Below, piece after piece: positions 25,734-29,327 of a stretch of DNA of 64,000 nt. Position numbers and translations under genes: made by a program. The DNA comes from Brevundimonas subvibrioides (GTDB taxonomy: Bacteria > Pseudomonadota > Alphaproteobacteria > Caulobacterales > Caulobacteraceae), in NCBI RefSeq assembly GCF_002280785.1, contig NZ_NCEQ01000003.1, forward strand, positions 62,001-126,000, written 5' to 3'. Below the pieces are notes generated by a model that was not told the DNA's origin, searched no databases, and was given only the letters and a program-made list of their open reading frames with translations. Position 1 is the first letter of the stretch; each line of letters begins with the position of its first letter.

Positions 25734-27095
25734 TCATGGTCTTGGTAGCACGATGCGGACGGCCAGACCGGGATGGTTCGGCCCGATCACGAGTTCGCCG
25801 TCGTGGAGCGCAGTTATCGCCGCTACCAAGGCCAGACCCAAGCCTTGACCGGGCGTGTTGCGGCTTGAGTCGAGCCGGTAAAAACGTCGTGTGATCCGCT
25901 CGACTTGGTCGTCGGGGACGCCCCGACCATCGTCGCGCACGGCGAGAACGCTCTTCGAGCCCTCGTCGTAGGCTCCGATCTGAATTTGCGCGCCGCTGCC
26001 CGCGTGCGCCAAGGCGTTGTCGACCAAGTTCGACAGCAGTTGAACCAGCAGTTCGGGGTCGCCGATGACCTCGGCGTCACTATCGACGAGCCGGGTCAGG
26101 ATGTGGCCGCTTTCCTCGCTGGCGGGCTGATAGGCCTCGAAGACACGATCGACCACATCGCCCAGCTTGACGGGCCTGAACGAGGTCCGGCCGGTGCCGC
26201 CCTCCAGTTGGCCGATGCGCAAAAGGGCGGAGAAGGTCTCTAAAACTTGGTCAAGGTCCGCGATCGCGGCGCGAATGGCCGAGTCCGGCACCCGTCCGTC
26301 GATGGATTCCGCCTGGGCCCGATCTAGACGCTGGCGTAGGCGGTTCAGTGGCGTCCGCAGGTCATGGGCGATATCGGTCGAGACATGCCGCAGAGCTTCC
26401 AGCGCCCGCTGCTGCCAATCCAGAAGAGCGTTCAGGTTGCGGCGGACGCGCTCCAGCTCGGTTCCCAACCCGACGGACGGCACGCGCTCATCGGGGTGAC
26501 CCTCCATGATGCGCGCGGCGGCCCGATTGATCCGGCTCAGGCGTGCCGACAGTAGTCCTCCAGCCGCTGCGCCCGACAAAGCGGCGACACCGGTCAGACC
26601 CAGTACGGCCCATAGACCGAGATCCTGAACCAGCTCCTCAAGCTCATGAACGGCATAGGTCGACTTGCCGACCACAAGCGTGCCCTGAGGCAGGGCCGTG
26701 GCCAGGGTACGGACAGGCACTTCCTCGGCCGGACCTCCGTCATCTTCGGCATAGGGCAGCTGAATTTCGTCAAGCCCCTGGCGCGGCATCAGGCCGTCGG
26801 GCAACTGCCCCGCCAGTCGCCGACCCTGGGGATCCGTCACGCTGTAAACGAAAAGGCCGCCAACCCGGCTCCGGGCCTCGACCTTGCGCACCAGGGTCGC
26901 CTGATCCGACCCGCCGTCCTCCGCCAGCAGCACGCGGGTCTCAGTCTGGAGGTCCGTCGTGAGGGCCTCCGCCGCATAGCGATAGACGACGATCGTCAGG
27001 ACCGACCACAGAACCCCGCCGCCCAGTCCAAAGACAAGGGCATAGACGAGGGCCAGGCGAACGGCGACCGATTCCAGGGCCCTAGTCATGGTCAT
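25734..27095 (-). CDS. Sensor histidine kinase
   Basis: A 453-residue membrane kinase with two membrane helices (about residues 13-38 and 160-182) flanking a periplasmic sensor domain of about 120 residues. A HAMP linker, the HisKA dimerisation domain with phospho-acceptor His244 (STDIAHDLRTPLNRL) and a HATPase domain follow (N box LLSNLVDNALAHA, G1 VRDDGRGVPD, G2 GQGLGLALVAA). The 5' end overlaps the response regulator gene by 14 bases. It lies directly before the TolC-MFP-RND genes, which are its likely target. The signal is unknown. Confidence 0.93.
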   Translation of the reverse strand: MTMTRALESVAVRLALVYALVFGLGGGVLWSVLTIVVYRYAAEALTTDLQTETRVLLAEDGGSDQATLVRKVEARSRVGGLFVYSVTDPQGRRLAGQLPDGLMPRQGLDEIQLPYAEDDGGPAEEVPVRTLATALPQGTLVVGKSTYAVHELEELVQDLGLWAVLGLTGVAALSGAAAGGLLSARLSRINRAAARIMEGHPDERVPSVGLGTELERVRRNLNALLDWQQRALEALRHVSTDIAHDLRTPLNRLRQRLDRAQAESIDGRVPDSAIRAAIADLDQVLETFSALLRIGQLEGGTGRTSFRPVKLGDVVDRVFEAYQPASEESGHILTRLVDSDAEVIGDPELLVQLLSNLVDNALAHAGSGAQIQIGAYDEGSKSVLAVRDDGRGVPDDQVERITRRFYRLDSSRNTPGQGLGLALVAAITALHDGELVIGPNHPGLAVRIVLPRP

Positions 27096-27759
27096 CCAAT
27101 CGGTAGCCGGTGCCCCGCGCAGTCTGAATGCGGTCGCGAGAGAACGGCCGATCGACCTTGGCGCGCAGACGACTCATGTGAGCGTCGATGAGATTAGCGC
27201 GGGGCTCGAAGTCGAATCCCCAGACCTTCTGAAGCAGCATGTCGCGCGTCACGACCAGGCCCGAGTGTCGGACCAAAAATTCCAGCAGTCGAAACTCCTG
27301 AGGTGTTAAGTCGAGCTCGACGCCGGCGCGCCGGGCCGTGCGCGAACCGAGATCGATCTCGATATCCCCGGCCGTCAGGCGATCGCGCATGTCCAGCGTG
27401 CGCGGCCGTCGGCCCAAGGCGTTCACGCGGGCCAGCAGTTCACTGAAAACATATGGTTTGACCAGATAGTCGTCAGCCCCCGCTTCGAGCCCCTCGACCC
27501 GGTCCCCGACACCGCCGACGGCCGTCAGGAAAAGGGCCGGTGTGGTCACGCTCGCAGCTCTCGCCTTTTTGACGATGCTCAGGCCGTCGCCGCCCGGCAA
27601 CATGCGATCGACGATGAACACGTCATAATGGCCTTCGAGGGCCATGTGTTCGCCGTCCTCGGCATGGTCGGCGATATCGACCAGATGACCGGCCTCCCGC
27701 AGGCCTCGCGCGGCGAACTGCGCCGCTTCGGCATCGTCTTCGATCAGCAGAATCTTCAT
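27082..27759 (-). CDS. OmpR/PhoB-family response regulator
   Basis: A 225-residue regulator with a receiver domain (acid pocket EDD at 7-9, phospho-acceptor Asp51 in VFIVDRMLPGG, Lys in YLVKPYVFSEL) and a winged-helix output domain (LDLTPQEFRLLEFLVRHS and RLRAKVDRPF). The ATG at 27759 is preferred to the TTG two codons earlier because GGAGG lies seven bases upstream of it. It is the first gene of the leftward two-component/efflux operon. Confidence 0.93.
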   Translation of the reverse strand: MKILLIEDDAEAAQFAARGLREAGHLVDIADHAEDGEHMALEGHYDVFIVDRMLPGGDGLSIVKKARAASVTTPALFLTAVGGVGDRVEGLEAGADDYLVKPYVFSELLARVNALGRRPRTLDMRDRLTAGDIEIDLGSRTARRAGVELDLTPQEFRLLEFLVRHSGLVVTRDMLLQKVWGFDFEPRANLIDAHMSRLRAKVDRPFSRDRIQTARGTGYRLDDHD

Positions 27760-27811
27760 CTTCAAACCTCCCCGAGGTCCTCGCCCGGCGCCGGGCGAGG
27801 TTGACGAAGGA

Positions 27812-28174
27812 TCAATCCTCGTCCTCGGACCCCTCGTCGATGTCCGATTCGGCGGGGGCGGCCGACAGCGCGCCGGTCGTCATGTCGACCAGATAGGTCG
27901 AGACTTGACCGTCACGAGCGAGTTCGACTTCCCACCGGCTGCCGCTCTCATCGTCGAAAGCCGCCTCCAACGCCTTGCCGCCGTTCTGGCGCTCGGCGAT
28001 GGCTACAGCTTGGGCCAAAGACACGCGCGCGCCCATCACGGTGGCGATCTCCTGGGCGTCGTCGGCTTCCTCGCGCTCGGGCGAGGGTCCGTTTGCCAGG
28101 GCCACGCCGCCAATGGCTAGAGCCGACGCCAGGGTCGCCGCAGACAGGCCGATCACGATCGTCTTGCGTTTCAT
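27812..28174 (-). CDS. PepSY-domain secreted protein
   Basis: A 120-residue exported protein with a signal peptide (IGLSAATLASALAIGGVALA) and one PepSY domain (VSLAQAVAIAERQNGGKALE through VDMTTGALSA), ending in an acidic tail (ESDIDEGSEDED). The start at 28174 is supported by GGAG eight bases upstream. PepSY proteins often lie next to two-component systems and are proposed to inhibit or modulate periplasmic partners. It is about 50 bases upstream of the response regulator gene, in the same direction, so a role tied to that system is likely but not shown. Confidence 0.83.
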   Translation of the reverse strand: MKRKTIVIGLSAATLASALAIGGVALANGPSPEREEADDAQEIATVMGARVSLAQAVAIAERQNGGKALEAAFDDESGSRWEVELARDGQVSTYLVDMTTGALSAAPAESDIDEGSEDED

Positions 28175-28321
28175 CGTCTTTCTCCACTGTGCCCCAATCG
28201 GGCACGGTGACACCCTAGGTGAGCCAACCTTCGCGCAGCCTCGCGGCACAGTTAAACCTTCGAGAGGCACGGACACGGCGAAGCTGTCGTCATGCCGCCG
28301 CCCCCTACCTTTACGATGAAA

Positions 28322-28345
28322 CATACTATAGAGGAGTATAGTATG
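28322..28345. promoter_or_regulatory. Operator of RcnR/DmeR-type regulator, overlapping RBS and start codon
   Basis: CATACTATA-GAGGAG-TATAGTATG is a perfect 9-bp inverted repeat around a 6-base G-rich centre. It matches the layout of RcnR/FrmR/DmeR operators (ATACTATA, G-rich core, TATAGTAT). The centre GAGGAG is the regulator's own ribosome-binding site and the right arm ends with its ATG (28343-28345), so bound repressor would sit across the translation start. TACTAT in the left arm could serve as a -10 box. Confidence 0.78.
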
Positions 28346-28618
28346 ACACATGTCGCAGGCAACAAGAAGAAGCTAGTTACGCGCGTCCGCCGGATCAGCG
28401 GCCAGCTAGCGGCGATCGAGCGGTCGATCGAGTCCGGGGCGAGTTGCTCGCAGATTCTGCAACAGGTGGCGGCGGCGCGTGGGGCAATGAGCGGGCTGCT
28501 GGAAGAATTGATCGAAGACCACCTCCACAAGCATGTGGCTCGGTCCGATTTGACGGATGCAGAGCGCGAGACCGGAGCCGCCGAATTGCTCGCCATCATC
28601 CGCCGCTATTCCCGATAG
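28343..28618 (+). CDS. dmeR: RcnR/DmeR-type Ni/Co-sensing repressor (CsoR/RcnR family)
   Basis: A 91-residue all-helical repressor of the CsoR/RcnR family. The metal-site fingerprint is His3, Cys35, His60 and His64 (MTH at the N-terminus, ESGASCSQIL, EDHLHKHV). That H-C-H-H set matches RcnR, which binds Ni(II) and Co(II), and differs from CsoR (C-H-C) and FrmR. The ATG at 28343 places His3 correctly and has GAGGAG six bases upstream. The gene immediately downstream begins as dmeF, a Co/Ni CDF exporter, reproducing the dmeR-dmeF pair, but dmeF is truncated. The sensor may therefore be an orphan or act elsewhere. Confidence 0.85.
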   Translation: MTHVAGNKKKLVTRVRRISGQLAAIERSIESGASCSQILQQVAAARGAMSGLLEELIEDHLHKHVARSDLTDAERETGAAELLAIIRRYSR

Positions 28619-28626
28619 GTTCGACC

Positions 28627-28737
28627 ATGACGACCGCTCACCCGCATCTCCACATCCACGACCACAACTTTCTGGGTTCCACCCACGACGACAATGCGCG
28701 TCGCACCTTGTGGGTGGTGGCACTGACCACAGTCATG
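28627..28737 (+). pseudogene. Truncated dmeF (Co/Ni CDF exporter) 5' fragment
   Basis: The first 37 codons read MTTAHPHLHIHDHNFLG, then ARRTLWVVALTTVM, the His-rich N-terminus and start of TM1 of DmeF-type CDF exporters. At about 28,737 similarity ends abruptly; the frame continues to a TGA at 28918-28920 with unrelated sequence lacking membrane helices. Intact proteins are about 300-350 residues. The break coincides with the edge of the accessory block, so deletion or recombination at the island boundary is the likely cause. It lies 8 bases after the dmeR stop. Confidence 0.78.
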
Positions 28738-29252
28738 AGGCGTCGAACTGCTCATCGCTGCACGCAGTGCCCAGACGTTCCCCTCGCAAAAATGTTGGTG
28801 GGCGTGACGATTATTCGGCGGTGCGTATTTCTTGCACGGAGCGTGCGGCCCGTCCGACGATCCCGGGGCACTCCCACCCGGATCGGACACCCGTTCCGAA
28901 TTCACTTGCCCGAGTTCTGAGCTGAATTTGAACCACCTGGCCAAGGCATGCTTCTCGGTGACCGAAGGGATTCGAGCTATCCAGCATTGACGGTGCGGAC
29001 CCGCCGCTACCCGCCGCGTGTGAGAACCTTCAGCTTTGAAATGGGTCTGCTGCACAGAGGAACTTCGATCTAGGGTGCTCGATTTCAGCAGGTTTCAGCG
29101 GGTTTCACTCCGATACACCCGCCGAAAATCAGCGCTGGCCAGGGTTCTCGGTGTTTTTTTGGTAGCGGTGGGGTAGCGGCGGGAAAAATAGGGTGGGCGA
29201 CCCCGCCGGGATCGCCCTGCCATAACCTATTGATAGCCTTAGCTATCTCGAC
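28738..29252. other. Island junction region without a recognisable gene
   Basis: About 515 bases separate the broken dmeF from the tRNA-Gly 3' end. I recognise no complete gene. A plus-strand frame ending at about 29,007 (LNHLAKACFSVTEGIRAIQH) has protein-like composition but no start codon, and could be a gene remnant. Near 29,160-29,185 there are repeated GTAGCGG motifs beside a run of eight T. This is where an island attachment site and integrase remnants would be expected; none is positively identified. Confidence 0.45.
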
Positions 29253-29327
29253 TGGAGCGGGCGAAGAGATTCGAACTCTCGACCCCAACCTTGGCAAGGT
29301 TGTGCTCTACCACTGAGCTACGCCCGC
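29253..29327 (-). tRNA. tRNA-Gly(GCC)
   Basis: The minus strand folds as a complete tRNA: acceptor GCGGGCG pairs with CGCCCGC, D-loop AGTGGTA, anticodon loop TTGCCAA (anticodon GCC, Gly), T-loop TTCGAAT, and an encoded CCA end at 29253-29255. The 75-base length is normal. Its 3' end points toward the accessory metal-resistance block, the usual orientation for an island inserted at a tRNA 3' end. Confidence 0.97.

Follow-up and report, generated by a model that had tools for sequence, protein, structure and literature searches.

The locus described here is best approached through its relatives. In published accounts of the DmeR/RcnR family, the metal-free regulator binds a DNA repeat and is released from it by nickel or cobalt (PMC7055735, PMC3902906), and a His-Cys-His-His (HCHH) fingerprint is assigned to DmeR (PMC7055735, PMC6044271). 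The closest described systems are the DmeR-DmeF pairs of the Rhizobiaceae (S. meliloti, R. leguminosarum and A. tumefaciens), in which dmeR precedes dmeF, the regulator carries the HCHH fingerprint, and the operator consists of A/T-rich arms around a 6-base G- or C-rich core. In the S. meliloti sequence CP090106.1, where both genes are annotated, the region upstream of dmeR ends in ATAGGGTACCCCCCTATGCT, and the ATG follows immediately; this is the repeat printed for the organism, which runs into the annotated dmeR start codon and is described there as overlapping the -10 element (PMC6044271). E. coli RcnR belongs to the same family, has the same fingerprint and recognizes TACT-G6-N-AGTA (PMC7055735, PMC3902906).

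The locus studied here lies in a 64-kb stretch of DNA, positions 62001-126000 of contig C8 in a genome of 36 contigs, the whole of which stretch was analysed and is referred to as the window (Table 1). It has the gene order, the fingerprint and the A/T-rich repeat with a G/C-rich core before dmeR that characterize the Rhizobiaceae systems, and differs from them in that dmeF is truncated, the core is the interrupted GAGGAG instead of six C or G residues, and the arms are perfect. A TACT-N7-AGTA pattern resembles the E. coli operator, whereas the window has one site placed over the start codon, no rcnA, and a regulator that does not reach the cut-off of the RcnR model.

Table 1. Features of the dmeR locus and the adjoining probable island end (positions in the window)
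Feature	Position	Strand	Basis
Perfect inverted repeat CATACTATA-GAGGAG-TATAGTATG, predicted DmeR operator	28322..28345	+	repeat scans; block conserved in relatives
dmeR, 91-aa RcnR/CsoR-family regulator	28343..28618	+	PF02583 match, H3-C35-H60-H64 fingerprint
dmeF 5' fragment, 37 codons	28627..28738	+	similarity break after 28738
Stretch between dmeF break and island end	28739..29155		no match among those listed
Probable island end, 97 bp	29156..29252		flank similarity beside same tRNA
tRNA-Gly (gcc), probable integration site	29253..29327	-	tRNA call

A DmeR-like regulator and its lost partner

The preliminary description of this DNA had recognized a regulator of the RcnR/DmeR type, and this assignment holds. 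The protein belongs by sequence to the RcnR/CsoR family (PF02583, E 1.6e-22, 80.1 bits against a cut-off of 22.8), and all four fingerprint residues, His3, Cys35, His60 and His64, are present in its translation. No NCBIfam equivalog cut-off is reached: the score is 62.9 bits against the RcnR model (NF011613, cut-off 138) and 86 bits against the FrmR model (NF008464, cut-off 133), the latter below its cut-off, yet above the RcnR score. Among solved structures the sequence relatives are InrS and the formaldehyde sensor FrmR, which is the best match (5lcy, E 5.5e-21); the window regulator nevertheless differs from FrmR in having His64, no Pro2 and a dmeF-type neighbour instead of frmA. In a tree built on few columns it falls outside the FrmR clade and groups with same-genus regulators linked to dmeF or to ATPase genes, while the same few-column tree, with its open forks, places S. 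meliloti DmeR elsewhere and does not join it to the window regulator. In its family, its fingerprint, the order of the genes and the features of its operator the protein agrees with DmeR, and we have filed it as DmeR-like.

The dmeF frame starts 8 bases past the dmeR stop codon, so that dmeR leads an operon shared with dmeF. At 92% identity the nearest relative is G050, whose sequence is also that of L048; it shows the same layout and encodes an intact DmeF of 317 aa (460.9 against a cut-off of 250), to which the 37-residue fragment is 94.6% identical. DNA similarity to this relative ceases after 28738, and the remainder of dmeF was looked for downstream of this point and not found; the truncation after about 37 codons proposed from the first inspection is thereby borne out. 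Against the DmeF profile NF033827 the fragment covers positions 2-28 of 309 and scores 29.3 bits, below the cut-off of 250. No DmeF above the NCBI cut-off is encoded on any of the 36 contigs, the best score being 75 bits against 250, so that no second complete dmeRF locus was found in this genome and the regulator is left without the partner gene of its operon, in keeping with the suggestion that it may be an orphan. Across 150 related genomes a regulator match was obtained in 25 and a DmeF over the cut-off in 16.

Compared with the nearest relative, dmeR has a whole reading frame, with dN 0.035 and dS 0.30, and the dmeF fragment gives a similar ratio (dN 0.024, dS 0.171, over 37 codons), which suggests little relaxed evolution since the cut, with values that mix the time before and after truncation because they cover the whole period since the split from the relative. 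The intact frame, fingerprint and operator would mean either that the cut is recent or that the gene is still useful. We regard this, with fair confidence, as an ordinary DmeR that probably regulates itself and belongs to a dmeRF operon truncated not long ago, next to the end of an island at a tRNA-Gly; it possibly cross-acts on a sister operon. By analogy with the family, metal-free DmeR would bind the repeat and block its own operon, and Ni(II) or Co(II) bound at His3, Cys35, His60 and His64 would free it from the DNA; the truncation would be recent, with the regulator still intact and under selection.

A real possibility, somewhat short of an even chance, is that the locus is a dying relic, in which DmeR, its dmeF gone, represses only itself, the ATPase operon on C1 is left to the sister regulator there, and decay of the window copy will follow. 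The lack of an intact DmeF in the genome fits such an ending, as does a sister locus that possesses its own regulator and operator. The intact frame, fingerprint and operator, with substitutions that are mostly silent, speak against it, though the cut may be too recent for decay to have set in.

The probable island end beside the break

Some 0.5 kb separates the break in dmeF from a probable island end at tRNA-Gly. Between the two, 28739-29155 had no match among the matches listed from 131 same-genus genomes and none in the plasmid collection. The 97 bp that follow are about 84-91% identical to sequence beside the same tRNA in at least 12 other same-genus genomes (131 searched, own included), and beyond this shared flank those of the other genomes that were examined carry differing genes. 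One of the genomes (G158) has two copies of a 57-bp tRNA end on the same strand, separated by about 128 kb. A search of the own genome for a second tRNA-Gly end, which would mark the other end of the island, yielded only a 78% match, on contig C23. On these similarities, 29156-29327 looks like the integration site of an island. Also, metal-related and other genes are found beyond the tRNA-Gly flank, which is probably an island hot spot in the genus.

The junction at 28738 is shared by no other genome among the matches listed from the 131 same-genus genomes, and its restriction to one assembly is what would be expected if the strain in fact had a whole dmeRF and the break were an assembly error. 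We consider this improbable, since the contig continues for hundreds of kilobases along a plausible path into an island end and a tRNA-Gly common to at least 12 other genomes, and since none of the 36 contigs has a DmeF over the cut-off.

The repeat over the start codon

The perfect 9-bp inverted repeat reported over the regulator ATG is real: all nine pairs match around the 6-base centre GAGGAG, the right arm ends in the ATG (28343-28345), and the whole spans both the purine run and the start codon. Perfection of this length is not rare in itself, as 15 perfect 9-base repeats with spacers of 3-10 were listed in the window, nested ones included, and ten Markov simulations of the window gave 2-12 each. 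It is, however, the only one with A/T-rich arms, of which the ten simulations produced none. A strict operator scan, defined as an 8-6-8 arrangement with TA at both inner edges and a G- or C-rich core, found this site only in the 64 kb and one match in total in 20 simulations. The 8-6-8 core of the predicted operator occupies 28323-28344, and the same block contains TACT-N7-AGTA (28324-28338), the sole such pattern in the whole window. The idea of TACT-N7-AGTA as the conserved element, with the 9-bp repeat as an accident, was dropped when the wider comparison revealed 8-6-8 as the general DmeR form; both registers stand as readings of one block. The operator shape claimed for the repeat finds its counterpart in the published DmeR/RcnR operators.

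The 39 regulator places were reduced to 30 loci, one of which (L042, 38% identical) fell under the later tblastn limit. Of the 23 distinct same-genus rows, 19 have an operator-like block that overlaps or abuts the start codon, a number made up of 18 aligned rows and L035, whose start had been shifted by the script; the aligned rows had been picked for carrying the block, so that 18 of 18 is not a proper count. The rows without it are two dmeF-linked loci, with none in 60 bases (L046 and L047), and two FrmR-like ones (L039 and L041). The wider set comprised 52 distinct rows; the script placed the block over the start in 24 of them and upstream in 7, and did not find it in 21, four of which (L129, L133, L134 and L135) have a block abutting the start when inspected by eye. 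The second arm is poor in most same-genus copies (2-3 of 8 matches), rising to 6/8 in the CAGGGG type and to 7/8 in both L035 and the nearest relative; only the window copy reaches 8/8 within the genus. Perfect 8-6-8 sites are also found in other alphaproteobacteria, farther upstream of the gene (L103 and L115). An order-wide pattern search was weak: it hit 12 places, spread over 11 of the 398 genomes, and the reversed control hit 9. Of the 12, three outside the own genome precede dmeR (G130, G577 and G793), and another (L130) precedes a 16-codon frame.

The start-codon operator had been put forward as something special, and this part of the preliminary description does not survive the comparison: the arrangement is common in the group. 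We found no paper in the open-licence literature that remarks on the geometry, but since the S. meliloti repeat had already been printed with the same placement, it is of an already known kind, and within the genus the perfect second arm alone is peculiar to the window copy.

The same palindrome could form an mRNA hairpin, with the AUG in the stem and GAGGAG in the loop, that controls translation at the start codon. Folding gave -8.2 kcal/mol for the 24-nt RNA, a value that none of 200 shuffles matched, and -11.1 (z -2.60) for the 51-nt context; in the nearest relative a G-U pair preserves the stem (-13.0, z -2.78). The one GGGGAG-type relative folded adopts another structure (-7.1, z -0.17), the second arm is missing in most same-genus copies, and a DNA operator alone accounts for the palindrome. 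Being common to the nearest relative and absent from the GGGGAG-type one, the hairpin is a minor rival of decidedly low probability.

Regarding transcription, no sigma-70-like promoter was found on the + strand around the operator (28150-28800), and no terminators were found near the dmeR locus. The sole sigma-70-like match in this interval, where 0.3 would be expected by chance, is on the - strand (28335-28362, 9 of 12), runs across the repeat and points towards the PepSY gene.

The sister locus and the fate of an orphan regulator

A genome scan for further copies of the repeat, envisaged from the start, was carried out with two patterns. Allowing up to 3 mismatches, the 22-base pattern occurred at the window site alone, and given that the reversed control also had 1 place, only the zero-mismatch match is informative. 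The 17-base core ATACTATAGRGGAGTAT, again with up to 3 mismatches, matched without mismatch both at the window and at C1:170706, with 0 places for the reversed control; a third place, with 3 mismatches, is inside a gene on C27. The C1 site stands at the start codon before a sister regulator (C1:170431-170703) that is 77% identical to that of the window, and the gene after this regulator encodes a heavy-metal P-type ATPase (TIGR01525, 549.3 bits; TIGR01512, 444.9 bits; both over cut-off). The two loci are thus alike in regulator, operator core and start-codon placement, and differ in that the sister locus would, by its position, control the ATPase, whereas the window locus has only a DmeF fragment. 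Given that the cores of the two sites differ at one base, DmeR may also act in trans at the C1 operator, for which the sequences offer something close to an even chance.

Several features of these neighbourhoods are recorded here. The sister-locus ATPase (L014:2235-4352, - strand, contig C1) has a His-rich N-terminus and the segment GACGIAAGTP, which is the same in the 10 ATPase loci read (L014, L020, L021, L022, L043 and L049-L053); in heavy-metal P-type ATPases a CPC-like motif is usual at this position. Genes for a sensor kinase, a response regulator and a PepSY-like protein lie near dmeR in the window (25734-28174, - strand) and on C1 (L014:1-1659, - strand), and a response regulator and PepSY stretch is also present in the relative L079. 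Three CsoR-like regulators occur in the own genome (C8:55037, C1:210764 and C21:48928), the last aligning only from profile position 25; a perfect ATATACCC-N5-GGGTATAT is found upstream of two of the three, and C1:210764 has a short GGGTAT-type repeat upstream.

Re-use of the regulator for the czc/cnr-type genes of the island, as the preliminary description had entertained and as the metal efflux RND genes in the same window might invite, is very improbable: no second operator was found near the czc genes, either at up to 3 mismatches or by the strict 8-6-8 scan (which also misses the C1 sister site, so that weak operators in the window may escape it), TACT-N7-AGTA occurs once in the whole window, and the single further good copy is the one on C1, ahead of the sister regulator and the ATPase gene.

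One possible explanation for the frequency of start-codon operators is that dmeR mRNAs are leaderless. The repeat would then hold the -10 element, transcription would start at the AUG or immediately before it, the 22-bp site would serve as promoter, operator and translation start at once, and a DmeR without a pump would survive by sharing its site type with the sister ATPase operon. This proposal, which we consider rather unlikely, draws on the position of the S. meliloti repeat over the -10, on orthologs whose core is C-rich and which lack a purine run ahead of the ATG (L100, L129 and L132), and on the leaderless mRNAs counted for C. crescentus (375) and S. meliloti (171; PMC4117421). Against it count the lack of a + strand promoter and the purine run that stands at a usable distance from the start in most same-genus copies.

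Returning to the reading of an ordinary DmeR in a truncated operon, the lead is mostly closed: an operator at the start codon is a regular trait among DmeR loci, and dmeF was lost through a local accident near the end of an island.
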